NCBI RefSeq assembly: GCF_030010215.1
Contig: NZ_JASCRR010000001.1
Span: 186,001-250,000, forward strand
Direction: 5' to 3'
Length of the DNA stretch: 64,000 nucleotides
DNA from: Tianweitania sp. UT-5YL-CI-8
GTDB lineage: Bacteria; Pseudomonadota; Alphaproteobacteria; Rhizobiales; Rhizobiaceae
Position 1 is the first letter of the stretch. Each line of letters opens with the position of its first letter. The position numbers and the translations under genes are program-made. Positions 46,106-60,644 of the stretch are shown in pieces. The notes below the pieces were generated by a model. It ran no database searches, was not told the origin of the DNA, and saw nothing but the letters and a program-made list of their open reading frames with translations.

Positions 46106-48034
46106 GTGTCCGTTGCACGAGTATCGCCAATGCCAACCACGGTATCTAACGAACGTATACGCAATGTTCTGTGGATCTTGCAAAATACGGTCATCCGGAT
46201 GATCGGTGCCGAGTCCACATTGGAAGCAATTGCCGAGCTTATATGCCGCCAAGTCGAATTGCTGGCAAGCGATGACGTCGCATGCTCGATCCTGACTCTG
46301 GACGACAATCGGAAACTTCACACGCTCGCCGCACCCCACCTGCCGGTTGAATATTCACAGGCGCTGGATGGGATTGAGATCGGAAACGATGTGGGTTCGT
46401 GCGGAACGGCTGCCTATCTTGGCGAAGACATCGTAACACTTGACCTGAGCACCGACAGGAGATGGGCAAATTATTCCCATTTAACGGCGCTTCTGCCGAT
46501 GAAAGCCTGCTGGTCCAGCCCGATTTGCGCCGGCACCGGTGCTGTAATCGGCACATTCGCGTTCTACTTCAAAAACAGCCGGGGTCCGTCCGGCTACGAA
46601 CGTGAACTGGTCGCATGCTGCACACAGCTTTGCGCGATCGCCATCGAATACGCACAGACACGCGAGCGGTTGGTGTCGCTTGGCTATGTCGATCCGCTCA
46701 CCAAGCTCCAGAATCGGGCTGCGTTTCACAGAGACATCGAACAGCTATGCCAAGGGACTGCGCCTTTTACGCTTCTCCTTCTCGATCTGAACAACCTGAA
46801 GGGCACGAACGACACTCTCAGCCACACGGCGGGAGATGCGCTGATCTGCGCGGTCGGTGAGCGGCTGAAAGGGCTGGGACCCTCTCTTTCGCCGTACAGA
46901 CTTGGCGGCGACGAATTTGGCGTGCTCGCTCCGAAATGCGACAATGACGAAGACATGGCAAAATGCGCGTCAACCATCCTGGAGGCGGTCAACCGACCGG
47001 TCGATTTCCACGGCCACACGCTGAGCTGCTATGTGACTGTCGGCGGCGTGTGCAGTCAGCCGCCAATCAGCGCGGAGATGGTTTCGCAGAACGCCGATTT
47101 CGCGCTTTATCATGGCAAGGCGACCCGCCGTGGCGGCTTCGTCCGTTTCGAAGCCGGCATGCGCACTGCCATCACGCGACGGCTGAGTACGATAGCGCTT
47201 GTCGATGAGGCACTCCGAGACGGGCGTGTGCTTCCGTTCTATCAGCCGATGGTAAAGTTGGAGACCGCGGAGATCGTCGGTCTCGAAGCGCTTGCCCGGG
47301 TTCGAAATGCCGACGGCAGCATCATGGCCGCAGCCGATTTTCACGAGGCATTTGGGGAACCGCGTGTCGCGCAGATGCTGACCGATGTGATGCTGAACAG
47401 TGTCGCGGCGGATTTGCGAATCTGGCTTGACCGTGGCATCCCGTTCCAACATGTCGGTTTGAACGTGACCACCGCCGACTTTAATCGCGGCGATCTCGAT
47501 ACCCGCATCGCAGCAGCCTTCGGCAAGCAAAACGTTCCGCTCAAGCACATCGTGCTCGAAGTCAACGAGGCTGTCTTCATGGGCGGCACCGGCGACAACA
47601 CGGTGGCCACATATGTCGAGAACCTGCGTGAAAAAGGCATCATTGTCGCTTTGGACGACTTTGGAACCGGTTATGCGTCATTGACCCATCTTTTGGAGTT
47701 TCCCGTTGATCTCATCAAGATCGACAAGAGTTTCGTCCAGAAACTGCGTGACGATCGCGGCAGCCAGGCCATCGTCAACGCCCTCATCGACATCGCTGCG
47801 AAGCTGGGCATGAAAATTGTCGCCGAAGGCATAGATTCTGGGGTTCAGGTCGAGCAATTGCTCGCCATGGGCTGTAAGCTGGGGCAGGGTTATCACTATT
47901 CTCCGCCGGCGCCATTTGCCATTGTCACAGAACTTCTCGATCTGTTCAGTCAAGGCGTGAAACGGGGCGCACGGACGACCGAGGACGAAAAGCACAATTG
48001 GCCTGACCGGACCGGGATTCCATTACGGTTGTAA
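46106..48034 (+). CDS. GAF-GGDEF-EAL cyclic di-GMP phosphodiesterase
   Basis: A 642-residue cytosolic protein: GAF domain about 25-185 (with GSCGTAAYLGEDIV), GGDEF about 190-345, EAL about 365-615. The GGDEF motif itself is intact (267-271), but the upstream metal motif reads DLNNLKGTNDTLSH instead of DxD...GH, and no RxxD inhibition site is present, so cyclase activity is doubtful. EAL residues look complete: EALAR, the asparagine in GLNVT, LEVNE, DDFGTGYASL, KIDKSF, EGI and GQGYH. It is therefore probably a phosphodiesterase tuned by GAF ligand and GTP. The start is a GTG with GGAGA nine bases upstream. Confidence 0.92.
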   Translation: MSVARVSPMPTTVSNERIRNVLWILQNTVIRMIGAESTLEAIAELICRQVELLASDDVACSILTLDDNRKLHTLAAPHLPVEYSQALDGIEIGNDVGSCGTAAYLGEDIVTLDLSTDRRWANYSHLTALLPMKACWSSPICAGTGAVIGTFAFYFKNSRGPSGYERELVACCTQLCAIAIEYAQTRERLVSLGYVDPLTKLQNRAAFHRDIEQLCQGTAPFTLLLLDLNNLKGTNDTLSHTAGDALICAVGERLKGLGPSLSPYRLGGDEFGVLAPKCDNDEDMAKCASTILEAVNRPVDFHGHTLSCYVTVGGVCSQPPISAEMVSQNADFALYHGKATRRGGFVRFEAGMRTAITRRLSTIALVDEALRDGRVLPFYQPMVKLETAEIVGLEALARVRNADGSIMAAADFHEAFGEPRVAQMLTDVMLNSVAADLRIWLDRGIPFQHVGLNVTTADFNRGDLDTRIAAAFGKQNVPLKHIVLEVNEAVFMGGTGDNTVATYVENLREKGIIVALDDFGTGYASLTHLLEFPVDLIKIDKSFVQKLRDDRGSQAIVNALIDIAAKLGMKIVAEGIDSGVQVEQLLAMGCKLGQGYHYSPPAPFAIVTELLDLFSQGVKRGARTTEDEKHNWPDRTGIPLRL

Positions 48035-48075: not shown

Positions 48076-49698
48076 CTACTGTTTAGCGAGCAAATCGATC
48101 AGCAGGGCAAACATATCCGACATCGGCCGCGCGCGGGTCTCGCGCAGAGGCAGCATTCCGGCGTTGAAGCCGTTTGCCTGAAAACGCTCGATCAGTGTGC
48201 GGTCATTGCTAACGAGATGAATGGGCACATCGCGAGAGGCGTTCGGCCCGGTGATGATCGAAGCGGGCTGGTGATCGCCGACGAGGATGAACAACGCATC
48301 ACCGCCGAAGCGGGCGATATAGTCGCCGAGCGTGAGTAATGAATAATCGATCGTCGCGATATAGTGCTCACGGACCTGCTCCGGGTCGGACCATACGACA
48401 GCGGGCGGATCGCCGGCGACCGCCTGCGCATTGAAAATCGTGCCGTCCCCAACATCTTCCCAGCCGACAGGTTTTGGGACCGGCGTCCACGGCGCATGGC
48501 TGGAAATCAAGGCTATCTCGGCCATGAGGGGTTTTCCCGACGCGCGACTTGGCGACCGCGCCAAGCGCTCGAAAGTCGCGAGTGTGTATTGATCCGGCAT
48601 CGTCACCCAATTGAAAGGCAGTCCTCGATAGCCCAGATCCGCAGCCGCAAGAATCCGGTCATAGCCGTAATAGGCCGCCTCCGGCCACGCCATGGTGATA
48701 GCGGGCATAACGGCGATGCTTTCCCAGCCGGCCTCTGAAAACAGCCGGTTGAGGCTCGGACGCTTGCTTCGCATCAGGAGATCGTAGCGGGCCTGGTTGT
48801 CGATCCACAGGCCGGACAGGAAGGTGCCATGCGCCAGCCAGCTCAACCCGCCCACGGTCGGAGATCCCAGCCAACCGCTCGCCGCATGCAGTCCGGTTTC
48901 GGTCAGTCGCTGCTCGATGGAGTGAAGACGCGGCAGGGTGGTCTTGGCATAGCGCGGGTCCTCGACCGCGCTCCTGCCATAGGATTCAATGAAGATCAGG
49001 ATGACGTCATGTCCGGCGACCGCATTAAACAGCCCTTGGCCATCGGCAGGGCCTGTCTCCTTTGCTAGCTCTTCCTCGAATGCCCTGATGTCGGCGATGG
49101 ATCGCGAAATGAGATCGAGCCGCGTCGACACATAATTCACCGACCGCGCGTCCACCCAATCTGCAAACGAAAACCCGGCGATGATGATGACGCTACCAAC
49201 TGTAGCGACCAAACCGGACAGCGCCTGCAGTTTTCGCCGTGCGGGCGGCGGGATCAAGGCCAGGATGCGGAGTGACCAGAACAACCCCGTGGTCACCATC
49301 GCGACGAGCGATAAGGTCAAGCCAAGCGTTAGCCCGGCCTGGACAGCCCCCATGCTGCCGGAAAGAACGTTCCACCCGTCGGTTGCCATCTTGACATCGA
49401 GATAGGGATTGAACGGTCTCTGAAAAGCAGCCTGGGTAGCGATATCGGCGACCTTGAGGATGAGGATCAGCAGAAGGACGGCGCTCAAAATCGCCGCAAC
49501 CAGCGCGGCCAACTGCCGGGGCATCAAAAGCAGGACAAAAACGATCAGCGGAAGCTCGAGCGGCAATCGTAGAAAAGCGCCGGGGGTTATTGCATCTGGA
49601 TGATCCGGCAGGGCCAGCGTCAGAAGACCCAGCACCAGGAAGAGGATAAGTGCTGGCCAGGTCTGCCGGGAGGCTGTTGAAGCGGTCTTGTCAGGCAT
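48076..49698 (-). CDS. membrane sulfatase/alkaline-phosphatase-superfamily enzyme (LtaS/EptA-like)
   Basis: A 540-residue protein: four to five N-terminal membrane segments (to about residue 185) followed by a periplasmic sulfatase-fold catalytic domain. Metal-site and nucleophile regions are visible as LIFIESYGRSA, LSWLAHGTFLSG and LVGDHQPAS. Relatives transfer phosphoethanolamine or phosphoglycerol from phospholipids to surface glycolipids, or hydrolyse phosphate esters. Its neighbours are a flippase-like protein and a CDP-alcohol phosphatidyltransferase, so a lipid or envelope role is likely. Substrate and direction of reaction are unknown. Confidence 0.85.
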   Translation of the reverse strand: MPDKTASTASRQTWPALILFLVLGLLTLALPDHPDAITPGAFLRLPLELPLIVFVLLLMPRQLAALVAAILSAVLLLILILKVADIATQAAFQRPFNPYLDVKMATDGWNVLSGSMGAVQAGLTLGLTLSLVAMVTTGLFWSLRILALIPPPARRKLQALSGLVATVGSVIIIAGFSFADWVDARSVNYVSTRLDLISRSIADIRAFEEELAKETGPADGQGLFNAVAGHDVILIFIESYGRSAVEDPRYAKTTLPRLHSIEQRLTETGLHAASGWLGSPTVGGLSWLAHGTFLSGLWIDNQARYDLLMRSKRPSLNRLFSEAGWESIAVMPAITMAWPEAAYYGYDRILAAADLGYRGLPFNWVTMPDQYTLATFERLARSPSRASGKPLMAEIALISSHAPWTPVPKPVGWEDVGDGTIFNAQAVAGDPPAVVWSDPEQVREHYIATIDYSLLTLGDYIARFGGDALFILVGDHQPASIITGPNASRDVPIHLVSNDRTLIERFQANGFNAGMLPLRETRARPMSDMFALLIDLLAKQ

Positions 49699-49750: not shown

Positions 49751-50683
49751 GTGAAAGTCGCCATATTGCCTGCGCTCAGAATCATCACCGCCGTCATTTC
49801 CATCGCTGTATTGATAGGCTTGGTGCTCTTCATCGAGCCTGGCAAACTGTTTGAAGCCTTCCAAAGCGTGTCGGCGGGCCATGTCGTTCTTGGCCTCGGG
49901 TTGGTTCAAGTGCAGATTGTGTTGTCGGCGGTTCGCTGGCGCTTCACCGCGGCGCGGCTTGGCCAGACGATGCCGCTCACTCTCGCGATCCGCGAATATT
50001 ATGTTGCAAGCCTGCTCAACCAGACGCTGCCGGGCGGCATGGCGGGCGATGCGCTGCGTGCTTATCGCGGCCGAAGCGAAGCGGAAGGCGGCTGGAAGCG
50101 ACCGGCGCAGGCAGTCGTTCTCGAGCGGCTGTCCGGCCAGTTTGCCTTTTTCGCGCTGACCGGTATCGGCCTGCTCGCCTGGCCCTTGCTTCTCTCGTCT
50201 GAAATGCCCGATGGTTTCGGTGCCGTTGCTGGTGTGGCTGTCATGGTCTTGATGGCGCTTGCGCTGGTCTGGTTGTGGCGCGGCGCGCTGCCGGAGCGTT
50301 TCGCGGGGTTGAAACCCGATTTCGCTGTTGTCTTCTGGCAAGACGGCGCTGCCTTTGTCCAGATCGGACTGAGCGTGGTGGTCGTCGCCAGCTATGTCGC
50401 AACGTTTTTCATCGCCTCCGATGCCGTCGGCGCGCCATTGCCGTGGGTCGCCGCCGTCACGGCGGTGCCGCTGTGCCTGTTGGCGATGCTGGTGCCTTCC
50501 GCGATCGGCGGTTGGGGAACTCGTGAGGCCGCCGCTGCGGCGATGTGGCCCCTGCTCGGCTTTTCGCCAGGGCAAGGGCTTTCGGCCAGTCTGCTCTATG
50601 GCGGCATATCGCTTGCCGGCGCGTTGCCCGGACTCGGCGACTTGGCAGTTGCGGCATGGCGAGGCCGTATCGGCAGGGCGTGA
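49751..50683 (+). CDS. flippase-like integral membrane protein (lysylphosphatidylglycerol synthase TM family)
   Basis: A 310-residue protein with about eight hydrophobic segments, matching the LPG_synthase_TM (UPF0104) family without the catalytic aminoacyl-transferase domain. Family markers include SAVRWRFTAARLGQ near residue 60, YVASLLNQTLPGGMAGD near 90 and the PSAIGGWGTREAAA segment near 260. Such proteins are thought to flip or handle lipids. GTG start at 49751. It is divergent from the sulfatase-type enzyme and convergent with the CDP-alcohol phosphatidyltransferase. Confidence 0.88.
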   Translation: MKVAILPALRIITAVISIAVLIGLVLFIEPGKLFEAFQSVSAGHVVLGLGLVQVQIVLSAVRWRFTAARLGQTMPLTLAIREYYVASLLNQTLPGGMAGDALRAYRGRSEAEGGWKRPAQAVVLERLSGQFAFFALTGIGLLAWPLLLSSEMPDGFGAVAGVAVMVLMALALVWLWRGALPERFAGLKPDFAVVFWQDGAAFVQIGLSVVVVASYVATFFIASDAVGAPLPWVAAVTAVPLCLLAMLVPSAIGGWGTREAAAAAMWPLLGFSPGQGLSASLLYGGISLAGALPGLGDLAVAAWRGRIGRA

Positions 50684-50688
50684 ACGGC

Positions 50689-51459
50689 TCATCGCTTTTT
50701 TCCTGGCCGCTGCATCAGGAAATGAACGTCCATTGCGAAAGAATACGTCAGCGCAGCCAAGGCGACGCCCGCCAGCAGACTCGCAAGCGGCTGATATATC
50801 CATGGAGCGAGGATGAGGCAAAGAACGCCCATCTGGACAACGCAGACCAGCTTTCGTCCGAAAGAAGGCAACAAATCGCCGCGCAGGTCCGAAAAAAAAT
50901 GCTGCGCGACAACGAATATGTATCGCATCAACCCGATCAGCAGCACCCACCAGCCGGCCTTTTGCAGGATAAGTGCTGCTGCGGAGAGGATCAGGATGAG
51001 GAGCGCGTCGATCTCCATATCGAAGCGCGCGCCAAACGCTGTCTCCTCGTCAAATCTGCGCGCGAGATAGCCGTCTATGCCATCGAGAGCGACGGCGACC
51101 GAAGCCACGAGCACCAGGATCCATGCAAGCTGGCCACTTCCACCCAGACCATCGGCGAAAAAAACGACCGCTCCGACGAAGCAGACCATCGCGGTGCGCA
51201 ATGCCGTGATCGTATTGGCGTATCCGAAGCTGCCCTGCGCACCGCGGGGCAGGGCCTTCAGAACCACCCCATAGATAAATGCTAGAGATATCGCGGCTGC
51301 GATGCCGACACTGGGCTTTAAAGGCAAGAAAAGGCCGGCGACAAGGAACGCCAAAATGAGGAGGATGTAGATAACCGTCAACGTCCGTGCCGCACTGGCG
51401 CGCAGCATCGACCCGGGCGGTCTTCGCGACGTGCCCCATCCACCCGGTTCGACGACCAT
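50689..51459 (-). CDS. CDP-alcohol phosphatidyltransferase family protein
   Basis: A 256-residue membrane enzyme with the complete CDP-OH-P motif DG-x2-AR-x8-G-x3-D-x3-D: D129 and G130 in DGYLAR, G143, D147 and D151. It transfers a phosphatidyl group from CDP-diacylglycerol (or an analogous CDP-linked donor) to an alcohol. At 256 residues with six to seven hydrophobic segments it is longer than PgsA; the acceptor is unknown. The ATG at 51459 has AGAGGGA seven bases upstream; a TTG at 51477 is a weaker alternative. It is divergent from the pterin-like gene set. Confidence 0.88.
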   Translation of the reverse strand: MVVEPGGWGTSRRPPGSMLRASAARTLTVIYILLILAFLVAGLFLPLKPSVGIAAAISLAFIYGVVLKALPRGAQGSFGYANTITALRTAMVCFVGAVVFFADGLGGSGQLAWILVLVASVAVALDGIDGYLARRFDEETAFGARFDMEIDALLILILSAAALILQKAGWWVLLIGLMRYIFVVAQHFFSDLRGDLLPSFGRKLVCVVQMGVLCLILAPWIYQPLASLLAGVALAALTYSFAMDVHFLMQRPGKKR

Positions 51460-51683
51460 GCCGATTCCCTCTTGCAACGGCTGAACTTATTGCGCTGCCT
51501 CGGCTTTTTCGAGTTCGATCACGGAGTTGTGCGCAGGATTTCATTGGGGGAAAGTGACGCGGGCGCTCCGCCCAGCAGGTCCCACGCAACAACTATATTG
51601 GAGAAGGCGAAGGCATCAGCCATTCCAATTGGGTCGCGTGCGCCTAGATTGGTGGCAACGGGACGAACGTGTTGGAGATAGCT

Positions 51684-52676
51684 TTGCCGGCAGAGCCACG
51701 GAGCAGGGATGGGATATCCGCGCAGGCGCTGTGGTTTTCGGCGGCAGGCTCGTGCGAGTTGCGCACAGAGCGACTGCCGGAGCCTTCGGCGAATGAGGTC
51801 GTTGTAAGGACGCTGTTCAGCGGCATCAGCCGTGGTACCGAGGGGCTCGTCTTTGCTGGACAAGTCCCCGATAGCGAGGTCGAGCGGATGCGCGGTCCCA
51901 ATATGGGCGGAAGTTTCTCCTTTCCGGTCAAATACGGCTATTCTGCCGTCGGTACTATCGAGGCGGGGCCGGCTGATCTCATCGGCAAGACAGTCTTTTG
52001 CCTGCATCCGCATCAGGACCTTTTCGTGGTCTCCGCCGAGATGGTGACGCCTTTGCCACCTGAGGTTCCAGCCGCTCGCGCCGTTCTCGCCGCCAATATG
52101 GAAACCGCCCTTAACATCGTGTGGGATGCCGGCGTCCTGCCGGGCGACAGGATAGCCGTTTTTGGCGCGGGCGTCGTCGGCGCGCTCGTTGCCTATATTG
52201 TCGCCCGCATCCCGGGGACCGATACAATCCTGGTGGACAGGCAAGCGACAAGGAAAGACTTGGCAACCGGCCTGGATATTGCTTTCGCACACCCAGAAGC
52301 GCTCGAAGGCGAATTCGACGTGCTGATCAACGCCACCGCTTCAGCCGAGGCGCTTGCCATGGCCCTTTCCTATGCCGGCCAGGAGGCGCGTATCGTCGAG
52401 GCCAGTTGGTATGGTGACGGTTCGGTCTCGATCCCCTTGGGAGGGGCGTTCCACGCGCGCAGGCTGTCGATCGTCAGTTCGCAGGTGGGCTCCATCCCGC
52501 CCGCACGGCGAGCCCGTTGGAACTTTTCCCGACGGTTGGCCAAGGCGCTCGACCTGCTGGCCGATACGAGGCTCGATGCGCTGATCTCCGGCGAGACGCC
52601 TTTCGCCGATCTTGAGCGCGACTATCCTCACATTCTCGCCGGCGCGGATACATTGTGCCACCGCATCCGCTATTAA
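51684..52676 (+). CDS. medium-chain dehydrogenase lacking the catalytic zinc ligands
   Basis: A 330-residue MDR-family protein. The usual catalytic-zinc Cys is replaced (TLFSGISRGTE, Ser at 46) and the GHE motif is replaced by GYSAVG (85-90), as in BchC-like dehydrogenases. The cofactor motif FGAGVVGALVA (160-170) is intact. It is thus probably a zinc-independent NAD(P)-dependent reductase of a small carbonyl or alcohol. I choose the TTG at 51684, six bases after GGAG; GTG at 51669 is an alternative. It begins a tight four-gene set with a QueD-like protein, a glycosyltransferase and a methyltransferase. Confidence 0.82.
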   Translation: MPAEPRSRDGISAQALWFSAAGSCELRTERLPEPSANEVVVRTLFSGISRGTEGLVFAGQVPDSEVERMRGPNMGGSFSFPVKYGYSAVGTIEAGPADLIGKTVFCLHPHQDLFVVSAEMVTPLPPEVPAARAVLAANMETALNIVWDAGVLPGDRIAVFGAGVVGALVAYIVARIPGTDTILVDRQATRKDLATGLDIAFAHPEALEGEFDVLINATASAEALAMALSYAGQEARIVEASWYGDGSVSIPLGGAFHARRLSIVSSQVGSIPPARRARWNFSRRLAKALDLLADTRLDALISGETPFADLERDYPHILAGADTLCHRIRY

Positions 52677-52695
52677 AGGCGCCAAAGGAGATTTT

Positions 52696-53094
52696 ATGTT
52701 TGCCGTCGAAGTCCGCGATCACATCATGATCGCACACAGCCTGCCACGCCCCGTCTTCGGCCCCGCCCAAGGCATGCACGGTGCGACCTTCGTCGTCGAC
52801 GCCGCGTTTTTCACGAAGGACCTGGACGATGACGGTCTGGCCGTCGATATCGGTCTTGCGACGTCGGTGCTATCCAGCGTTTTGAAGCCGCTCAACTACC
52901 AGAACCTTGACGAAGTGGCTGTCTTTACTGGCAAAGTCACGACGACCGAAGTGGTCGCAAAGCACATTTTCAATGAACTTGCTCGCGCCGTTGAGGAAAA
53001 GCAGCTCGGCGCGGGAAGCGACCGTATCTGCAGGATCAAGGTGATGCTGCATGAATCTCACGCCGCACGTGGCTGGTATGAGGCCGACCTTTGA
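52696..53094 (+). CDS. 6-carboxytetrahydropterin synthase (QueD/PTPS) homologue with altered active site
   Basis: A 132-residue T-fold protein alignable to QueD/PTPS along its length. H14 (IMIAHSL) and H28 of the zinc site are kept, but the second histidine of HGH is A30 (MHGATF), the catalytic Cys position is A24, and the Asp-His pair of LDH..LN is N67-Y68 (LNYQNLDE). E85 (TTTE) and the pterin-anchoring E120 (MLHESHAARGW) are retained. It may therefore bind a pterin but catalyse a different reaction. AAAGGAGATTTT precedes the ATG. It lies 19 bp after the dehydrogenase and overlaps the glycosyltransferase gene (TTGA). Confidence 0.82.
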   Translation: MFAVEVRDHIMIAHSLPRPVFGPAQGMHGATFVVDAAFFTKDLDDDGLAVDIGLATSVLSSVLKPLNYQNLDEVAVFTGKVTTTEVVAKHIFNELARAVEEKQLGAGSDRICRIKVMLHESHAARGWYEADL

Positions 53095-54134
53095 ACCGCA
53101 GCCTCATCTTCGCTTATCCGGGCAGGCTCGATCTGAACACCGGCGGTTATGCCTATGACCGCAAGGTGATCGGCGGTCTCGAGAGCCTGGGCTGGACGGT
53201 AACGCCGCTTAGCCTCGGCGATGGGTTTCCGGCGCCATTACCTGGCGTACGGGCCGACGCCGAAGCGCAGCTTTCGGCACTGGAGGACGGCAGCCTCGTC
53301 GTCATCGACGGGTTGGCCTTCGGTGTGCTGGACGACTGGGCTATTCGAGAGGCAGAAAGGCTGAAGATCGTTGCCCTTGTGCATCACCCTCTGGCGCTGG
53401 AAACAGGCCTGTCCCAGGTTGTACAAGCCGATCTGAGGGCGCGAGAGAAGCGGGCCCTGCGGGCCCCGCGGCTGGTGGTCGTGACATCTCCGATGACGGC
53501 GCGCGAACTCACCGCGCATTATGCCGTCCCTCCAGAAACCATAGCGGTAGCTGTCCCGGGCACCGAGCCGGCACCCCGCGCTTCCGCTACCGGCACCCCG
53601 CCGCAAATCCTCTCGATCGGTACGCTTATTCCCCGCAAGGGCCACGACGTGCTGCTGGACGCGCTCAAGCTGATCCAAGATATCGAATGGAATGCCCGCA
53701 TCGTCGGCAGTCGCGACCTTGACCCGGCAACTGCGGATGCGCTGGAGGCGAAGGTGAGGGCGCACGGCCTGCAAAATCGGGTTGAACTGACGGGAGAATC
53801 CACCGACACACGAGCTGCCCTGGCATCCGCCGACATCTTCGCGCTGGCGTCCCGCTACGAAGGGTTCGGCATGGTCTTTGCGGAAGCCCTGTCGCAAGGT
53901 GTTCCGATTGTAGCCTGCGCCGCAGGCGCGGTGCCCGAGGTGGTACCCGCCGAAGCTGGGTTCTTGGTGCCGGTCGATGATGCCGAGGCTTTTGCCGGCG
54001 CACTCCGGCGGCTGCTGACCGACCCCGAAGAACACCGCCGATGCGCCGATGCGGCATTCGAGGCCGGCGCCCGCTTGCCGCGCTGGCACGACACGGCCCA
54101 GATTATCGCCTCCAGGCTGGCGAATATTGCATGA
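53091..54134 (+). CDS. family 4 glycosyltransferase
   Basis: A 347-residue GT-B glycosyltransferase. The C-terminal domain begins ILSIGTLIPRKGHDVLLDAL (near 170) and contains the retaining-GT motif SRYEGFGMVFAEALSQG with both glutamates (about 260-275), then AGAVPEVV. No membrane segment is visible. The start is a TTG within the TTGA overlap with the QueD-like gene; its stop overlaps the methyltransferase ATG. Translational coupling implies a common pathway, plausibly glycosylation of the product of the preceding enzymes. Confidence 0.9.
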   Translation: MNRSLIFAYPGRLDLNTGGYAYDRKVIGGLESLGWTVTPLSLGDGFPAPLPGVRADAEAQLSALEDGSLVVIDGLAFGVLDDWAIREAERLKIVALVHHPLALETGLSQVVQADLRAREKRALRAPRLVVVTSPMTARELTAHYAVPPETIAVAVPGTEPAPRASATGTPPQILSIGTLIPRKGHDVLLDALKLIQDIEWNARIVGSRDLDPATADALEAKVRAHGLQNRVELTGESTDTRAALASADIFALASRYEGFGMVFAEALSQGVPIVACAAGAVPEVVPAEAGFLVPVDDAEAFAGALRRLLTDPEEHRRCADAAFEAGARLPRWHDTAQIIASRLANIA

Positions 54135-54928
54135 GCGGTTTCGACAAGGGCTGGCTGACGCTGCGCGAACCGGTCGACCAAGCGGCACGCAGCCCGACGC
54201 TTCTCTCGGCGCTTTCGTATCATCTAGCAGCCGTCAAAAGCCCGCGAGCACTTCTCGACATCGGCTGCGGGACCGGGTCTACCTGGCGGAGCCTTCACGC
54301 ATTTTTGCCTAAGGATATCGAATGGCGACTTCTCGACTATGATCCTGAACTGCTGGCCGAGGCCAAGCGTCGGATCGGCGCCCAGGCGCGTGTGCGGTTT
54401 CATCGCCACGATCTCAACGATCTAGACGGCCTGCCGCTTGACGGCATCGCTGTCGTGACAGCGTCGGCCTTCTTCGATCTCTGCTCGGAAAGCTTCTGTC
54501 GGCGGCTCGTCGCGCGGCTACGGGATGTGCGGTCTGGGCTCTACGCCGCGCTGACCTATGACGGACATATGCAATGGTCCGTTCCGCACCTGCTCGATCC
54601 GATGGCGGTCGAGGATTTCAACCTGCATCAGCGCTCGGACAAAGGGCTTGGCGCCGCCCTCGGACCCGATGCGACCGCAACGCTGCGCAGCCTGTTCGAG
54701 GAAGCCGGCTTTCGTATCCAGATCGCTGAAAGCCCGTGGCGGATGGGGCAGGGGTATGCACCTATGCAGGAGGCCTTTCTGCAAGGCTTCGTTCAGCCTC
54801 TTACGGAGATTGGAAGACTGTCGGAAGCCGAGATCAAAGAGTGGTTGGCCTTCCGCATCGACGCTATCGCGAAGCCCGAAAGCTCATGCGTGGTCGGCCA
54901 TCTCGATTTGCTCGCTCTGCCCGGCTGA
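54131..54928 (+). CDS. class I SAM-dependent methyltransferase
   Basis: A 265-residue Rossmann-fold methyltransferase. SAM-binding motif I is LLDIGCGTGS (41-50), motif II LLDYDPELL, and a motif IV region lies at VVTASAFFDL. It overlaps the glycosyltransferase by 4 bp and its 3' end overlaps the convergent RibD-type gene by 45 bp. Acceptor unknown; it could be O- or N-methylation of the pterin-like or glycosylated product. Confidence 0.87.
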   Translation: MSGFDKGWLTLREPVDQAARSPTLLSALSYHLAAVKSPRALLDIGCGTGSTWRSLHAFLPKDIEWRLLDYDPELLAEAKRRIGAQARVRFHRHDLNDLDGLPLDGIAVVTASAFFDLCSESFCRRLVARLRDVRSGLYAALTYDGHMQWSVPHLLDPMAVEDFNLHQRSDKGLGAALGPDATATLRSLFEEAGFRIQIAESPWRMGQGYAPMQEAFLQGFVQPLTEIGRLSEAEIKEWLAFRIDAIAKPESSCVVGHLDLLALPG

Positions 54929-55690
54929 GCGCTTTTGCAGACCGAAACGGCAATCGAACAAAACATCGCTGCCAAGCATGTAGACATCAGTCTTGGGCCG
55001 ATAGGCCGAGGACAGACTTTCGATGGGCGATAGCGAGATGCCTTGTGGCCCGGAGCCGATGATAAGAGGCGCGATGGATACATGAAGCCTGTCCAACAGG
55101 CCGAAATCGACAAAACGGGCGATCGTGCGCGCACCCCCCTCCACCAGAATTCTAGACAGTCCACGCTGTTCGAGAGCGTCCAACATTTCATGAGGATTCA
55201 AACCGCAGTCGCGCTGGGGCAGGCGGATCACCTCGGATGCCGGATAATTTTTGCGCGGCGCCTCGCAGCTTTGGATGAGGATGACAGGCGCACCGCCGTC
55301 CCGAAACAGGCCTTCATCGCCGGAAAGCTCGGCCTTGCAGTCGACCACGACCCTTACAGGGTCTGGTCCAACTGCCTTTCTGACGGAAAGCCTGGGATCG
55401 TCCGTCTTGACAGTGCCAACACCGACGATGACTGCCTCGACAAGCGCGCGACATCGATGCAGATGAGCAAGACCCTCGGGACCTGAAATGTCCCGCGCAT
55501 CGCCTTCCGGCGTCGCGACCCGTCCATCGAGAGACTGCCCGACCTGCGCAAGCACAAACCGGCCTTGCGCCGAGGCAATAGGGCCGTAGAGAGACAGTAT
55601 GGCATCGTCGATGTCGTTTTCGATAGGTCGACCGCTGCGCAGCCTCATCAGCTGCTCCCAGGTCGCTTCGGTCATCTCGATTGTGCGCAT
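54884..55690 (-). CDS. RibD C-terminal domain reductase (dihydrofolate-reductase-like)
   Basis: A 268-residue protein with the reductase half of RibD and no deaminase domain. After a ~40-residue extension comes FVLAQVGQSLDGRVAT, then VIVGVGTVKTDDPRLSVR (NADPH/substrate loop), and ILVEGGARTIARFVD near the C-terminus. These enzymes reduce the ribosyl or a pteridine/pyrimidine ring with NADPH. Placed beside a QueD-like protein it probably acts on a pterin-related compound rather than in riboflavin synthesis. The ATG at 55690 has AGGA eight bases upstream; M6 (55675) is possible. Confidence 0.87.
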   Translation of the reverse strand: MRTIEMTEATWEQLMRLRSGRPIENDIDDAILSLYGPIASAQGRFVLAQVGQSLDGRVATPEGDARDISGPEGLAHLHRCRALVEAVIVGVGTVKTDDPRLSVRKAVGPDPVRVVVDCKAELSGDEGLFRDGGAPVILIQSCEAPRKNYPASEVIRLPQRDCGLNPHEMLDALEQRGLSRILVEGGARTIARFVDFGLLDRLHVSIAPLIIGSGPQGISLSPIESLSSAYRPKTDVYMLGSDVLFDCRFGLQKRSAGQSEQIEMADHA

Positions 55691-55697
55691 CGCGGTC

Positions 55698-56225
55698 CTA
55701 GAGGATTCGATAAAGCGTATCGTCGCGCCGCATGGCATGGTGCATCACGGCGGCTCCGACATGCAACGCGACCAGTGCCAGAACGATCCATGCGCTCCAC
55801 TCGTGAATTGCCGAAAGTGTCCAGGCGATGTCCGGACTTTTGCCGATAGGGCTCCAAACCTCCGCCAGTCCGAACCAGACAAGCGGAAAACCATGCGCAT
55901 TGGTGGCGAGGAACCCAGTGACCGGCATCAGGATCAGAAAGACATAGAGCAAGCCGTGGACCGTATGCGCCGCGAGGCGTTCTATCGGCGGTCCTTTGAT
56001 CAGAGGCGCCTTGCTGGTCAGCCGCGCGCCGACGCGCAACAGCATCAGCCAGAGGACGAGGAAGCCGAGCGATTCATGGACGAGATAGAAATCAAGCTTC
56101 ACATCGTCTTTGACGAACCCGATCATCAGGCCGAGTGGCCAGATCGCCAGAACCAGAGCGGCAATCAGCCAATGAAGCAGCTTGAGCAGTGGCGAGTAAC
56201 CGCGTTTCGCACCACCGGCATCCAT
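55698..56225 (-). CDS. cytochrome b561-type diheme membrane protein
   Basis: A 175-residue protein with four hydrophobic helices and the heme-ligand histidines of the b561/b6 group: LLKLLHWL, YLVHESLGF, AAHTVHGLLY and VALHVGAAVMHH. It carries electrons across the inner membrane. It is 7 bp upstream of the RibD-type gene in the same direction, which suggests co-transcription and possibly a redox link to that cluster. Confidence 0.9.
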   Translation of the reverse strand: MDAGGAKRGYSPLLKLLHWLIAALVLAIWPLGLMIGFVKDDVKLDFYLVHESLGFLVLWLMLLRVGARLTSKAPLIKGPPIERLAAHTVHGLLYVFLILMPVTGFLATNAHGFPLVWFGLAEVWSPIGKSPDIAWTLSAIHEWSAWIVLALVALHVGAAVMHHAMRRDDTLYRIL

Positions 56226-56472: not shown

Positions 56473-57207
56473 TTATCGCGCCAATAGTTCGCCGATGAAC
56501 CGGCGTGCGGCCGCGACATTTTCTATCGTATGCTGCGCAGCTGTCGGGCCTTCCGGGCGTACGCGGATCGACACGCCGCCAAGCTCGTTGACGAACTCGA
56601 AGCCGGTTTCATCTGCCGTATCGTCGCCGAGGAAAACCGGACGCCGGCCTGCAAATGTCGGAAGGTCCATGAAGCGCCGAATGGCAGCGCTTTTGAGCGC
56701 GTCGAGCGGCAGAAACTCCACGCCGGCATGACCGGCCAGAAGCCGGTATTTCTCACCCAGCTTCTTGAGAGCGCGTTCCGACGCGGCCTTGACCTGCGGC
56801 AACGAATGCGGCGCCGCCCGCGTGTGAATGGCCAGCACAGCACCCTTGCGCTCGAAATAGATGCCGCGCGTGGTGTGGAATTCCTCCTGCAACTGATCTG
56901 CGACCGCTGTCAGGTCTTCAGGCTCACCCGCTGTCGTCACCGGGCCGTGCTTTTCCAGCCTGTGTTCCAGGCCGTACAGGCCGGCTGTCGGCAACTCCAT
57001 GTCGCCGAACAGCCGGTCGACCATGGCGATGGATCGTCCCGTAACCAGCGCGACGGCACCGTTGAGGCGTTTGTCCGCTTCCAGCATCAAAGCACGCAGC
57101 TCTTCGTCCATCACCACGCCTTCGGGGTGCGGCTGGTGTTCGAGAAGCGTGCCATCGATGTCGAGAAAAAGAGCGACGTCGCCGGATTTCAGATCAAGCA
57201 ATTCCAT
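56473..57207 (-). CDS. otsB: trehalose-6-phosphate phosphatase
   Basis: A 244-residue HAD-superfamily phosphatase. The nucleophile motif is FLDIDGTLLEHQPHP, motif II ALVTGRS, and motif IV FLGDDTADETGFEF. The trehalose-phosphatase cap residues (YGLEHR) are present. It completes trehalose synthesis after the GT20 synthase encoded 78 bp upstream on the same strand. Trehalose is an osmo- and desiccation protectant in rhizobia. Confidence 0.92.
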   Translation of the reverse strand: MELLDLKSGDVALFLDIDGTLLEHQPHPEGVVMDEELRALMLEADKRLNGAVALVTGRSIAMVDRLFGDMELPTAGLYGLEHRLEKHGPVTTAGEPEDLTAVADQLQEEFHTTRGIYFERKGAVLAIHTRAAPHSLPQVKAASERALKKLGEKYRLLAGHAGVEFLPLDALKSAAIRRFMDLPTFAGRRPVFLGDDTADETGFEFVNELGGVSIRVRPEGPTAAQHTIENVAAARRFIGELLAR

Positions 57208-57284
57208 GAGTCCTTCCAGATATATAGGGCGAGCGGCACCGCCTTAACGAAGGTGCAGCTTGGTTTTCAGCGATGCGGTGCTGC

Positions 57285-59006
57285 TCAAGCGATGACGCTG
57301 AAGCGGTTGTTCTGCCTGTGCTTATCGCTGGCCGAGGTCAACCCCGCACGCTTGCGCAGGCGCGCTGCGTCGACCAGCATCGAGCCGGCCCAACGGAACA
57401 CGTTGTTATTGCGCACCACCTCTCGCATCCGCTGCATCCGCTCGCGCATTTCGCCTTCCGGCATGGTCAGCGCGTGGAAAAACGCCTCGCCCATTGACGA
57501 TGGATCGAACGGATTGACGATCAGCGCCTCGAGCAGTTCGCGCGAGGCGCCGGCAAAGGTCGAGAGGATCAGCACTCCGCGCTCGTCGTCGCGCGATGCG
57601 ACGAACTCCTTGGCGACAAGGTTCATGCCGTCATGCAGGCTCGACACGACGCAGATGTCTGCGGCGCGATAGAGCTCGGCAAGCTCCTCCTGCGTATGGT
57701 GCTCATCCAGCAGGATGATTGGCTGATAGCCATCGCTGCCGTAGCGGTCGTTGATCTCTGCCACCAACGCCAGGCATTCCTCGTGCAGCTGCTTGTAAGC
57801 CGGAAGGTCGGAGCGGCTGGGTGCTGCGATCTGCAGAAAGACCAAGCGGCCGATCCAGTCGGAATGCTGGGTGAAAAACTCATCCAACGCATGGAAGCGG
57901 TCGAGCACGCCCTTGGTGTAGTCGAGCCGCTCGACGCCAATGGCAATCTTAACGTCGTCGGGAATCCCGTGCCGGTCACGCAATGTCCTGCCTGGGTCGG
58001 CAGTGATGAATTTCGGCTTCTTCGGCCACTCGATCGAGATCGGATAGGCGTGAACCAGCGTGGTGCCGCCCTTGTACGAGACAGCCGCCCCTTCCCTGTC
58101 GATGCGGGATTCGAGAAAGCGATCAACACTTTCGGTAAAATTGTTACAGTGAAGCTGAATGTGGAAGCCGAGGATCGAACTGCCCAGCAAGCCGTCCAGA
58201 ATTTGTTCACGCCACGGGCAGATGCTGAACACCTCGGCATTCGGCCACGGTATATGCCAGAAAGTGATGATGATCGCGTTGGGCAGCCGCTCGCGGATCA
58301 GTCTCGGCAAAAGCGCAAAGTGATAATCTTGCACCAGCACGATTGGCCGGTCGCTCTTGGCTTCGGCGATGACGGCGTCTGCGAATTTACGGTTTACCGC
58401 CTGATAGGCGTCCCAGTCGGCCGCGCGGAAGATCGGCCGCGTAAACGCGATATGGCAAAGTGGCCACATGCCCTCATTGGCAAAGCCGAGATAGTAGCCC
58501 TTCAGCTCTTCCTCGCTGAGCCAGATCCGGCGAAGCGTATAGGTCGGATCGTCGGGCGGCACAGCCACATGGTCTCGCTGGTCAACGGTTTCGCGGTCGG
58601 CCGAACCGCCGCCATGGGCTATCCAGGTTCCACCGCAGGTGCGAGTGATCGGCTCCAGCGCCGACACCAGCCCGCTTGCCGGCTTGCGCAGAACGACCCC
58701 CTTCGCCGTCTTTTCGTGGATGTAGGGTTCGCGATTTGAGACGACGATGACTTCCGTGTCGGGCAACTCGTCGGCGAGAATTTTTTGAAGCGTCTCCGGT
58801 CCCCAATCCACCAGCATATCGTTGACGTCGCGTCCGTTCTTTTCACTTTCACGCATCACAGGCTGGTAGTCGATGACTGGCATGGGTTGCGGGCCGACGC
58901 GCTTTCGCCACATCAGAATTGTGCTACCCACAGCTAAAGTTGATAGAAGAATGCTGACGGTCAAGACCGTCCACACAAGCGCATAGTCACTCAGTTGCGT
59001 ATTCAT
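57285..59006 (-). CDS. otsA: trehalose-6-phosphate synthase-type GT20 enzyme with N-terminal membrane anchor
   Basis: A 573-residue protein. Residues ~8-35 form one transmembrane segment, followed by a ~60-residue linker and the GT20 domain (about 95-560). The conserved VSNREPY start, HIPWPNAEVFSICPWREQIL acceptor region, VERLDYTKG donor-phosphate motif and SSLHDGMNLVAKEFVA are present. Soluble OtsA proteins (about 460-480 residues) lack such an anchor, so this belongs to a divergent subfamily. Trehalose-6-phosphate synthesis is likely because otsB follows, but a related glucosyl-phosphate product is possible. I use the ATG at 59006; the frame is open further upstream without homology. Confidence 0.85.
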   Translation of the reverse strand: MNTQLSDYALVWTVLTVSILLSTLAVGSTILMWRKRVGPQPMPVIDYQPVMRESEKNGRDVNDMLVDWGPETLQKILADELPDTEVIVVSNREPYIHEKTAKGVVLRKPASGLVSALEPITRTCGGTWIAHGGGSADRETVDQRDHVAVPPDDPTYTLRRIWLSEEELKGYYLGFANEGMWPLCHIAFTRPIFRAADWDAYQAVNRKFADAVIAEAKSDRPIVLVQDYHFALLPRLIRERLPNAIIITFWHIPWPNAEVFSICPWREQILDGLLGSSILGFHIQLHCNNFTESVDRFLESRIDREGAAVSYKGGTTLVHAYPISIEWPKKPKFITADPGRTLRDRHGIPDDVKIAIGVERLDYTKGVLDRFHALDEFFTQHSDWIGRLVFLQIAAPSRSDLPAYKQLHEECLALVAEINDRYGSDGYQPIILLDEHHTQEELAELYRAADICVVSSLHDGMNLVAKEFVASRDDERGVLILSTFAGASRELLEALIVNPFDPSSMGEAFFHALTMPEGEMRERMQRMREVVRNNNVFRWAGSMLVDAARLRKRAGLTSASDKHRQNNRFSVIA

Positions 59007-59094
59007 ACTCCATCCGGTCCCTCGGTTGCGGCGCCGCAAACGGCATGGCCACCGCCGCGAAAATCCCGCGAGGGAATTGTGGCCATAAAGTGCA

Positions 59095-59119
59095 AACCCT
59101 CCAGGCCGGAAACGGTTCC
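59095..59119 (-). promoter_or_regulatory. EcfG/RpoE2-type promoter for trehalose genes
   Basis: On the minus strand the sequence reads GGAAC (59119-59115), 16 bp, GGTT (59098-59095). The alphaproteobacterial general-stress consensus is GGAAC-N16/17-(C/G)GTT. The -10 element is about 90 bp upstream of the GT20 start. Trehalose synthesis is a known output of the general stress response in rhizobia, so the match is plausible. Confidence 0.5.
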
Positions 59120-59397
59120 GAATATTTTTGCTGCACTGCGGAACTTTTCTCACAGATGCGTTGCGCCTACTCCGCGGTGCCCGTCCGCCGCGTGCACGGC
59201 AGCGACGCCGGAGCCTAGGCTGGCAGATAAGCATACGTCCTCGCCATCGACGCGCTACGCGATTGGGCAGGAAAAGGTTGGCGCGTTGCAGATCGAGAAG
59301 TGTGTCCTCACAAGTCGGGACCAGCGACATGGTGAAGCCATGCGCTTTGCCCGCTGACCAAACCCGATGTAATATGCCGGCACATACAGTTGCTAGT

Positions 59398-59443
59398 TTG
59401 CAAAAGTCCTGATTTGGACTATATTCCGTTCTGGACGAACGGA
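59398..59443 (+). promoter_or_regulatory. promoter with two inverted repeats upstream of the antitoxin gene
   Basis: TTGCAA (59398-59403) and TATATT (59420-59425), spaced 16 bp, form a housekeeping-like promoter. AGTCC-N6-GGACT (59405-59420) lies between them, and TCCGTTC-N5-GAACGGA (59425-59443) runs from the -10 to the ribosome-binding site. This placement is typical of antitoxin autorepression. Confidence 0.5.
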
Positions 59444-59451
59444 GCGAACTT

Positions 59452-59985
59452 ATGCCGGCGAGACAAGCAGCATTGCTGGAAAGCGGCCCTCCACCCGAGG
59501 GCAAGGCGATTCTCGATGCCGCGCGCTTTTCCGCCGTCAATCGGCGTCGTCTGAGCGCCCCTGCCCTGCGTACCTTCCTTGCCATTGCCGATCTGTGGGG
59601 ACTGGACGAACAGCAGCGCCTGCTTATTCTCGGCCTGCCATCTCGTTCGACCTATTACAATTGGGTCAAGGCTGTGCGCGAACATCGTGACGTCACGCTC
59701 GATGTCGACGTTCTGCTACGCATTTCGGCTGTCTTCGGCATTCATCAGGCGCTGGGCGTACTGCACCCGACCGAAGCCGCGGCCGTGAGCTGGCTGAAGA
59801 CACGGCACGATGCCACAGTTTTTGGCGGACAGCCGCCTTTGCGCCTGATCACTTCCGGTACGCAGGACGGGCTGATGTCCGTTCGGCGATTCCTCGATGC
59901 TGCGCGCGGCGGACTCTACATGCCGCCCAACGAAGCCGATGACGGTTTCACGCCTTACACCGATACGGATTTGATCGTCTCTTGA
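59452..59985 (+). CDS. antitoxin, MbcA/ParS/Xre family (DUF2384)
   Basis: A 177-residue antitoxin: N-terminal Xre-like helix-turn-helix (about 40-85, including LPSRSTYYNWVKAVREH) and a C-terminal DUF2384 toxin-binding domain (about 85-165, with RISAVFGIHQALGVLHP, the AVSWLKT helix and GLMSVRRFLDAARGG). It is followed with a 4-bp TTGA overlap by a RES-domain toxin, the standard partner. It should neutralise the toxin and repress the operon. Confidence 0.9.
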   Translation: MPARQAALLESGPPPEGKAILDAARFSAVNRRRLSAPALRTFLAIADLWGLDEQQRLLILGLPSRSTYYNWVKAVREHRDVTLDVDVLLRISAVFGIHQALGVLHPTEAAAVSWLKTRHDATVFGGQPPLRLITSGTQDGLMSVRRFLDAARGGLYMPPNEADDGFTPYTDTDLIVS

Positions 59986-60644
59986 AGCTGTCGCCTGCCC
60001 CGCAGCCGACCTACCGGCTGATCCCGTCGCGCTTTCCGCCCATCGGCCTGTTCGATTCGGTTGCCACCGCAGCCGACCTGCAAGCCGTCATGGAACTTGC
60101 CGGCTGGACCAACGACCGGCTCGTCTCCGAACGGATCCATCGGCTGCCGCACAGCGAATGGGTGTACGGCCGGCCCAATTCGAGCATCGTCATGGCGACC
60201 TTCCTGCATGTTGCCCCCGGTGGAAGCCGCTTCAACGGGCCTGAACTTGGCGCTTGGTATGCGGCTGCGACCATAAAGACGGCGATGGTCGAGGTCGCTC
60301 ACCACATGCGGCGGGAAGCGGTCGCCACGGGCATCGCCGAGTTGTCGCGCACCTTCCGCACCTACACCGCCACGCTGCATGGGCGTTTTGTCGACATCTG
60401 CGGCGCTGAGATGCCCGATGTCTACGACCCGACCGACTACGCTGCGTCGCAACGCTTCGGCGAAGCCGTACGTGCCAATGGCGACGACGGCATCCTGTTC
60501 GACAGCATCCGGTTGGCCGGCGGCGTCAATGTGGCGGCCTACCGGCCGAGCAATATCCTCGACGTGCTGCAGGCCGATCATTACGAGATCACCGTGCAAG
60601 CCGCGTCCAAGCAGATTCGCGCCCGGCTGCTGGAGACACCCTAA
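59982..60644 (+). CDS. RES-domain toxin (NAD+-degrading)
   Basis: A 220-residue RES-family protein. Family residues are visible as the arginine in TYRLIPSRFPP, GSRFNGPELGAWYAA and TAMVEVAHHMRRE, followed by the conserved serine region near AASQRFGEAVR. Characterised homologues such as MbcT are NAD+ phosphorylases that deplete NAD+. The start is a TTG overlapping the antitoxin stop, a weak start that would keep toxin below antitoxin. A terminator follows directly. Confidence 0.9.
   Translation: MKLSPAPQPTYRLIPSRFPPIGLFDSVATAADLQAVMELAGWTNDRLVSERIHRLPHSEWVYGRPNSSIVMATFLHVAPGGSRFNGPELGAWYAAATIKTAMVEVAHHMRREAVATGIAELSRTFRTYTATLHGRFVDICGAEMPDVYDPTDYAASQRFGEAVRANGDDGILFDSIRLAGGVNVAAYRPSNILDVLQADHYEITVQAASKQIRARLLETP

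Follow-up and report, generated by a model that had tools for sequence, protein, structure and literature searches.

The T-fold protein SCO6650 (PDB 3d7j), whose Streptomyces gene cluster the authors of its structure are said to have noticed, reportedly contains no zinc and has no PTPS activity. Chlorobium and cyanobacteria contain glycosides of pterins (PMC5683033), and a 2'-O-methylated pterin is reported from Agrobacterium (PMC13259868). Thr35 of yeast RIB7, an Asn of the archaeal enzymes and a Lys of bacterial RibD occupy one and the same site, where Lys favours the deaminated substrate, and the T35K replacement moves the preference of RIB7 toward that substrate (PMC3631187). BrbF of Sinorhizobium meliloti, a member of the creatininase family that serves riboflavin, is a proven formamidase that forms 2,5-diamino-6-ribosylamino-pyrimidinone 5'-phosphate (DARoPP) from a GTP-derived formyl compound (PMC9478397). 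Here we describe a gene cluster around an SCO6650-type T-fold gene of Tianweitania sp. UT-5YL-CI-8, found in a stretch of 64,000 nucleotides (the window; positions 186001-250000 of contig C1, NZ_JASCRR010000001.1, in a 5.2 Mb genome assembled in 62 contigs). At least two phyla share the linked gene set, whose probable role is to convert a pterin-like ring derived from GTP into a molecule that bears a sugar and is finished at the membrane. We put at roughly one half the probability that the product is an undescribed, membrane-processed glycoconjugate of a GTP-derived 2-amino-4-oxo-pyrimidine or pterin; a pterin as such is a possible product.

Four genes on the plus strand form the core of the cluster in the window. 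They encode a BchC-like, zinc-less medium-chain dehydrogenase, which starts at 51669 (GTG) or 51684 (TTG) and ends at 52676 (TIGR01202, PF00107), the T-fold protein, which has the PTPS/QueD fold and an altered active site (52696-53094; PF01242), a GT4 glycosyltransferase (53091-54134; PF00534, 122 bits) and a class I S-adenosylmethionine-dependent methyltransferase (54131-54928; PF13649, 41 bits). The dehydrogenase reaches 64.9 bits against TIGR01202, far under the cut-off of 291 bits, and its PF00107 match is weak. Overlaps of 4 bases join the T-fold and GT4 genes (TTGA) and the GT4 and methyltransferase genes (ATGA). On the minus strand, a RibD_C reductase without a deaminase domain (54884 to 55690 or 55738, its start probably being 55690; PF01872, 131 bits) is convergent with the methyltransferase gene and overlaps it by 45 bases, and a cytochrome b561 lies beside it (55698-56225, minus; PF01292, 99 bits). 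These are the six genes that an earlier note on this DNA had named, and open reading frame and profile searches found all of them where it had placed them. The interval that it proposed, 51684-55690, does hold genes of the cluster but is too short for the conserved unit: it leaves out a CDP-alcohol phosphotransferase, an LPG_synthase_TM protein and an AlkP-type protein and, at other loci, often a GTP cyclohydrolase II.

Conservation of the cluster was assessed at 158 loci, with neighbour families counted within 9 kb of the T-fold gene. From at least 507 relatives of the T-fold protein, the top 80 make up set A, which leans to near kin and is by title mostly from Rhizobiales; set B comprises 26 loci chosen by the T-fold alone in 398 genomes of the window's phylum, of which 27, including the window's own, were positive; set C comprises 40 loci, likewise chosen by the T-fold alone, in 39 genomes of the window's order, for which 119 of 397 sampled genomes were positive; and set P comprises 12 of 20 plasmid matches. 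The sets come from different collections and may contain the same species. The dehydrogenase was found at 153 of the 158 loci, GT4 at 152, the methyltransferase at 143 as a separate gene (149 with fusions), RibD_C at 116, cytochrome b561 at 91, GTP cyclohydrolase II at 82 and a creatininase at 8, while the CDP-alcohol enzyme was found at 95, the AlkP-type protein at 80, LPG_synthase_TM at 79, an FkbM methyltransferase at 72 and MdoH at 42. The 26 loci of set B, picked by the T-fold only, still carry the dehydrogenase (26), GT4 (25), the methyltransferase (24, of which 18 separate and 6 fused to GT4) and RibD_C (22), and the linkage of these genes is therefore not due to chance. Conservation of the genes together, on which the earlier note had staked its proposal, is thus clearly upheld.

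Gene order is conserved as well. Of the 153 loci with both T-fold and dehydrogenase genes, 148 have the dehydrogenase gene immediately upstream and on the same strand; GT4 lies downstream at 147 and the methyltransferase at 142, and RibD_C is present at 116, on the opposite strand at 113. Beyond Rhizobiales, related clusters occur in two Actinobacteria, on plasmids, and in Thiodictyon (Chromatiales), and RibD_C belongs to the clusters of both Microbacterium and Thiodictyon. The cluster or its core is plasmid-borne in Microbacterium, Streptomyces fungicidicus, Thiodictyon, Methylosinus and Neorhizobium, in the last on a conjugative plasmid. When the unassigned neighbouring open reading frames were clustered, no further constant partner emerged among the 25 clusters listed, many of which were antisense artefacts. 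No named pathway reached by our searches fits the conserved multi-enzyme unit, in agreement with the earlier note. The T-fold family already has a structure; for the cross-phylum gene set, the membrane module and the reductase signature described below we found no description, and no treatment of the cluster as a pathway, in openly licensed PMC papers.

The earlier note had called the T-fold protein QueD-like. Its fold is indeed that of QueD and PTPS (PF01242, 68.8 bits against a cut-off of 22.4), and size and the substrate Glu are common to them, but QueD function is not supported, as the catalytic residues are gone. The protein is an orthologue of SCO6650, not QueD: its profile matches 3d7j among solved structures with an E-value of 5e-45, the next entry reaching 5e-4, and its AlphaFold2 model (pLDDT 84) aligns with 3d7j at Z 18.1 and, by Foldseek, 52% identity, against Z of about 12-14 (14.2 or less) for PTPS/QueD structures. 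In 20 aligned rows from Proteobacteria and Actinobacteria, the catalytic Cys before LHGH, which aligns with Cys in three canonical homologues (selected from six candidate controls by the presence of C..HGH), is Ala in 20/20. The zinc motif HGH is HGA in 20/20, the two other zinc His being retained, and the His of the catalytic Asp-His pair is Tyr in 20/20, its Asp being mostly Asn and elsewhere T, A, R or D. The substrate Glu of QueD and PTPS (Glu120) is retained in all 20 rows, where 28 residues are invariant, including R7, H9, H14, S15, Q25, H28, T31, D51, Y68, N70, D72, T84, E85 and E120. Judged from this alignment, the active site is changed yet conserved. The T-fold gene is the sole PF01242 match in the window's genome. 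These results suggest that SCO6650-type proteins are apparently misnamed 6-carboxytetrahydropterin synthase in databases, and an orphan crystal structure gains a testable pathway. At three Streptomyces plasmid loci (L086, L092 and L097), which are among the 158, an SCO6650-type T-fold gene stands without the rest of the cluster, near genes for cupin, MBL-fold and BTAD-regulator proteins. Genome G545 holds two T-fold copies (L193 and L194), one in a full cluster, while the sole neighbour of the other from the searched families is of the PfkB type.

The reductase matches only positions 139-342 of TIGR00326, the deaminase domain being absent. We aligned 117 cluster proteins (those of 116 loci and the window) with 26 canonical RibDs, one each from 26 of the 27 T-fold-positive genomes of the phylum sample, the window's included. 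At the site of RibG Lys151, the cluster proteins have Gln in 116/117, as in the window, and His in one (L089), while the canonical controls have Lys in 26/26. From those same 27 genomes come 23 of the cluster reductases (22 of set B and that of the window), and Gln is found in 23/23. The rows are related and are not independent events, yet they cover two phyla. The cluster reductases keep the phosphate Arg (117/117), the Asp of DDP (117/117), a second Arg (115/117) and the Glu of VEGG (117/117); the phosphate Arg, the DDP Asp and the VEGG Glu are kept in the controls too. The nearest solved relatives are 6p8c and 2azn. From Gln at this site and the site comparison with RIB7 we infer that the cluster reductase would take a 2-amino substrate, and it looks like a RIB7/ArfC-like reductase that retains the 2-amino group; it differs from those enzymes in having Gln rather than Thr (fungi) or Asn (archaea) (PMC3631187) and in its place amid glycosyl- and methyltransferases. 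Where the earlier note saw a pterin reductase, a ribosylaminopyrimidine-phosphate reductase is the likelier identity of the protein, given its kinship with 6p8c and 2azn and the Gln signature. Gln for Lys serves as a sequence signature of reductases expected to retain the 2-amino group, and the first committed steps are therefore open to immediate assay in vitro. Genome G047 has no canonical bifunctional RibD above the cut-off, its best match being the cluster-type RibD_C.

The GTP cyclohydrolase with which the earlier note proposed to express these genes turns out, as a cluster neighbour, to be type II (RibA; 82/158 loci) and not type I, of which none was found at the 158 loci with the window genome's own FolE as query (E 1e-6). 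In the 155 loci that remain when the three Streptomyces loci with the T-fold alone are set aside, RibA and RibD_C occur together in 73, RibA only in 9, RibD_C only in 43 and neither in 30 (Fisher p 2e-5, uncorrected for relatedness). A link of the unit to GTP-derived pterin or flavin chemistry, which the earlier note had drawn for pterins, is supported. In the phylum sample, the cluster RibA has all zinc Cys in 11/11 genomes, and 9 of the 11 hold another intact copy; in the other two (G297 and G047) the cluster RibA is the sole intact cyclohydrolase II found, the others being degenerate RibB fusions. Second copies were examined in all but five genomes (G354, G174, G070, G383 and G086), none of which has a cluster RibA. 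These counts bear on the suggestion that the cluster serves ordinary riboflavin or queuosine metabolism, the T-fold protein being a QueD and RibA and RibD_C housekeeping copies. The database names and the two genomes that have an intact cyclohydrolase II only in the cluster would fit it, but a separate full-length RibD is present in 26/27 genomes, the QueD residues are gone, and GT4, the methyltransferase and the membrane module are left unexplained; we consider it very improbable. The queuosine pathway in particular is thought unlikely: QueC has three partial, weak matches in the window's genome, the best reaching 26.9 bits over positions 127-208 of 210.

The Streptomyces version of the cluster differs in its cyclohydrolase. 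A plasmid of S. fungicidicus carries a close SCO6650 homologue alongside the CDP-alcohol enzyme, dehydrogenase, GT4, methyltransferase, LPG_synthase_TM, a creatininase and a cyclohydrolase II with Met at the switch site (Tyr105 in Escherichia coli), the creatininase gene lying beside it, whereas at proteobacterial loci the cyclohydrolase is mostly of the Tyr type or absent. SCO6655, with Met at the switch site, is reported, in work by Spoonamore in 2006, to yield the formyl intermediate. Two of the cluster creatininases match the family of BrbF, which acts on a GTP-derived formylaminopyrimidine, although BrbF serves riboflavin (PMC9478397) and a creatininase is found at just 8/158 loci. As a marker of the Met-type cyclohydrolase, the creatininase holds in S. 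fungicidicus and failed in five of the six loci with both genes, and it was rejected.

Turning to the remaining core enzymes, an alignment of 154 dehydrogenases has no Cys with a conservation of 93% or more, which bears out at the sequence level the description of the dehydrogenase as zinc-less. Among solved structures, the dehydrogenase and the methyltransferase have weak relatives, and a search with the CDP-alcohol enzyme yielded none. The methyltransferase seems to be missing in 8 of the 26 phylum loci, yet in six of these eight (L136, L140, L142, L143, L146 and L147) it is fused to GT4 in a single frame of 656-662 residues. As GT4 and methyltransferase are one polypeptide in these six loci, they probably act on one molecule, which suggests that the sugar and the methyl group go onto that molecule.

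The gene set of the earlier note missed a membrane module, which consists of the CDP-alcohol phosphotransferase and an LPG-synthase-type protein; other clades have a glycosyltransferase of the MdoH type instead. In the window, the CDP-alcohol phosphotransferase gene (50689-51477, minus; PF01066, 67.5 bits) is divergent from the dehydrogenase gene, followed outward by genes for a flippase-like LPG_synthase_TM membrane protein (49751-50683, plus; PF03706, 134 bits) and an AlkP-superfamily membrane protein (48076-49698, minus; PF00884, 20 bits, under the cut-off). LPG_synthase_TM was never seen without the CDP-alcohol enzyme: in the 155 loci it is found 79 times with that enzyme and 0 times in the 60 loci lacking it. 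The AlkP-type protein, too, often accompanies the CDP-alcohol form of the cluster. Residues conserved in the CDP-alcohol enzyme include those of its catalytic motif. At the 158 loci, 93 have the CDP-alcohol enzyme only, 40 MdoH only, 2 both and 23 neither. Functional replacement of one by the other was considered and rejected as a general account, since on a quick tree of 93 loci (for which set A was reduced to every fifth locus and four others, the three Streptomyces T-fold-only loci being left aside) these states need only 3 changes and their alternation is mostly at clade level. Subfamilies were assigned for three MdoH proteins: two cluster MdoHs best match NF003963, and that of L136, one of the two loci with both (the other is L151), matches NF003958. 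This module may, as the last stage, attach the product to a lipid or glycan and export it.

Based on these gene contents, orders and residue patterns, we propose a pathway of five steps, of which the first two have fair support where the genes exist and the last three are conjectural. The cluster GTP cyclohydrolase II would open GTP to give DARoPP, a step that in Streptomyces may be taken by a formyl-retaining cyclohydrolase and a creatininase-family formamidase. RibD_C would then reduce the ribosyl chain before any deamination, in the manner of RIB7 and ArfC, so that the 2-amino group would stay. The Glu of the T-fold protein may hold the 2-amino-4-oxo ring while the zinc-less dehydrogenase acts on the side chain, so that the two would remodel it, perhaps with closure of a pterin ring. 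Glycosylation by GT4 and methylation by the methyltransferase would follow. Finally, the CDP-alcohol phosphotransferase and the LPG-synthase-type protein, or the MdoH type, could attach a lipid or glycan to the resulting molecule and carry the conjugate across the membrane. Contained within this proposal is a quite improbable special case, a pterin route independent of cyclohydrolase I. There, after cyclohydrolase II had given DARoPP and the RIB7-like reductase a ribityl chain, the zinc-less dehydrogenase would re-oxidise C2' to a ketone, the intermediate that cyclohydrolase I reaches via an Amadori rearrangement. The SCO6650-type T-fold protein would close the dihydropterin ring and, after glycosylation and methylation, the CDP-alcohol enzyme would anchor the pterin to a phospholipid, which would be flipped; this redox-active pterin-lipid of the membrane could trade electrons with the neighbouring cytochrome b561. 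The proposed glycoconjugate would represent a metabolite family not yet described, present in many bacteria of the window's order and phylum as judged by the T-fold counts above.

Several observations weigh against the proposed pathway. In sets B and C, 24 genomes have no RibD_C within 9 kb of the T-fold gene, one of them (G086) with its cluster close to a contig end; 13 of these hold canonical RibD only (at most 36% identity), and the other 11 have a cluster-like RibD_C elsewhere (44-51% identity), the copy in G545 having two in-frame stops. The reductase is thus usual without being universal, and the full scheme is the weaker for it. RibA is lacking at about half of the loci, the p-value given above ignores kinship, and all five proteobacterial loci with both creatininase and cyclohydrolase carry a Tyr-type cyclohydrolase. 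No intact cyclohydrolase II was found in the window's genome, whose 62 contigs may miss a gene; the single PF00925 match there is fused to RibB and has a cyclohydrolase half that lacks the zinc Cys (contig C34, L152, 9509-10672, minus). The alternation of the CDP-alcohol enzyme and MdoH is backed by about 3 swaps on the tree, the T-fold protein is a putative catalyst, and the product is predicted from the gene set. Four further genomes (G265, G392, G262 and G095) likewise yielded no intact cyclohydrolase II. Genomes with degenerate copies only, the window's among them, are in line with the first riboflavin step of S. meliloti, where the enzyme forming the formyl intermediate is given as not yet known (PMC9478397).

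The absence of the special reductase from those 13 of 24 genomes and of an intact cyclohydrolase II from the window's genome would also fit a classical route, in which cyclohydrolase I (FolE) supplies a pterin that the RibD-type protein, as a member of the DHFR superfamily, reduces before it is glycosylated and methylated. FolE is present in the window's genome, T-folds bind pterins and that of the cluster retains the Glu, and the pterin glycosides and 2'-O-methylated pterin cited at the outset offer precedents. The likeness to the Chlorobium and cyanobacterial glycosides (PMC5683033) is one of concept, the idea of a glycosylated pterin, and the cluster differs from those systems in carrying cyclohydrolase II, a reductase and membrane enzymes. 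As FolE accompanies 0/158 loci and cyclohydrolase II 82/158, and as the reductase retains the residues for ribosyl phosphate and has its nearest kin among DARoPP reductases, we regard this route as unlikely. The same 13 genomes are also compatible with a glycolipid or periplasmic-glycan pathway, in which the T-fold protein, dehydrogenase, GT4, methyltransferase and membrane module would modify a lipid or glycan while RibA and RibD_C are unrelated neighbours; the CDP-alcohol enzyme, LPG_synthase_TM and the AlkP-type protein, or alternatively MdoH, match RibA in constancy. Such a pathway would leave unaccounted for the one unusual residue borne by RibD_C in 116/117 proteins, the co-occurrence of RibD_C with RibA, its presence in the Microbacterium and Thiodictyon clusters and the ring-binding Glu of the T-fold protein. 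It is doubtful, though it is the strongest of the competing explanations, and the GTP-derived glycoconjugate is preferred.

Other genes were noted near the T-fold clusters. An open reading frame that by eye resembles UTP-glucose-1-phosphate uridylyltransferase lies within 9 kb at seven loci (L142, L146, L147, L180, L192, L214 and L218). Near the cluster in the window, a GAF-GGDEF-EAL protein is encoded at 46106-48034 (plus) and is likely a cyclic-di-GMP enzyme; in Agrobacterium, pterins control an enzyme of the GGDEF-EAL, cyclic-di-GMP kind (PMC13259868). At 56473-59585 (minus), a trehalose-phosphatase gene adjoins a long open reading frame that by eye resembles trehalose-6-phosphate synthase. 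At 59452-60644 (plus), an Xre/MbcA/ParS-type antitoxin gene is followed, with a 4-base overlap, by a gene for a RES-domain protein, and the two likely form a toxin-antitoxin pair.

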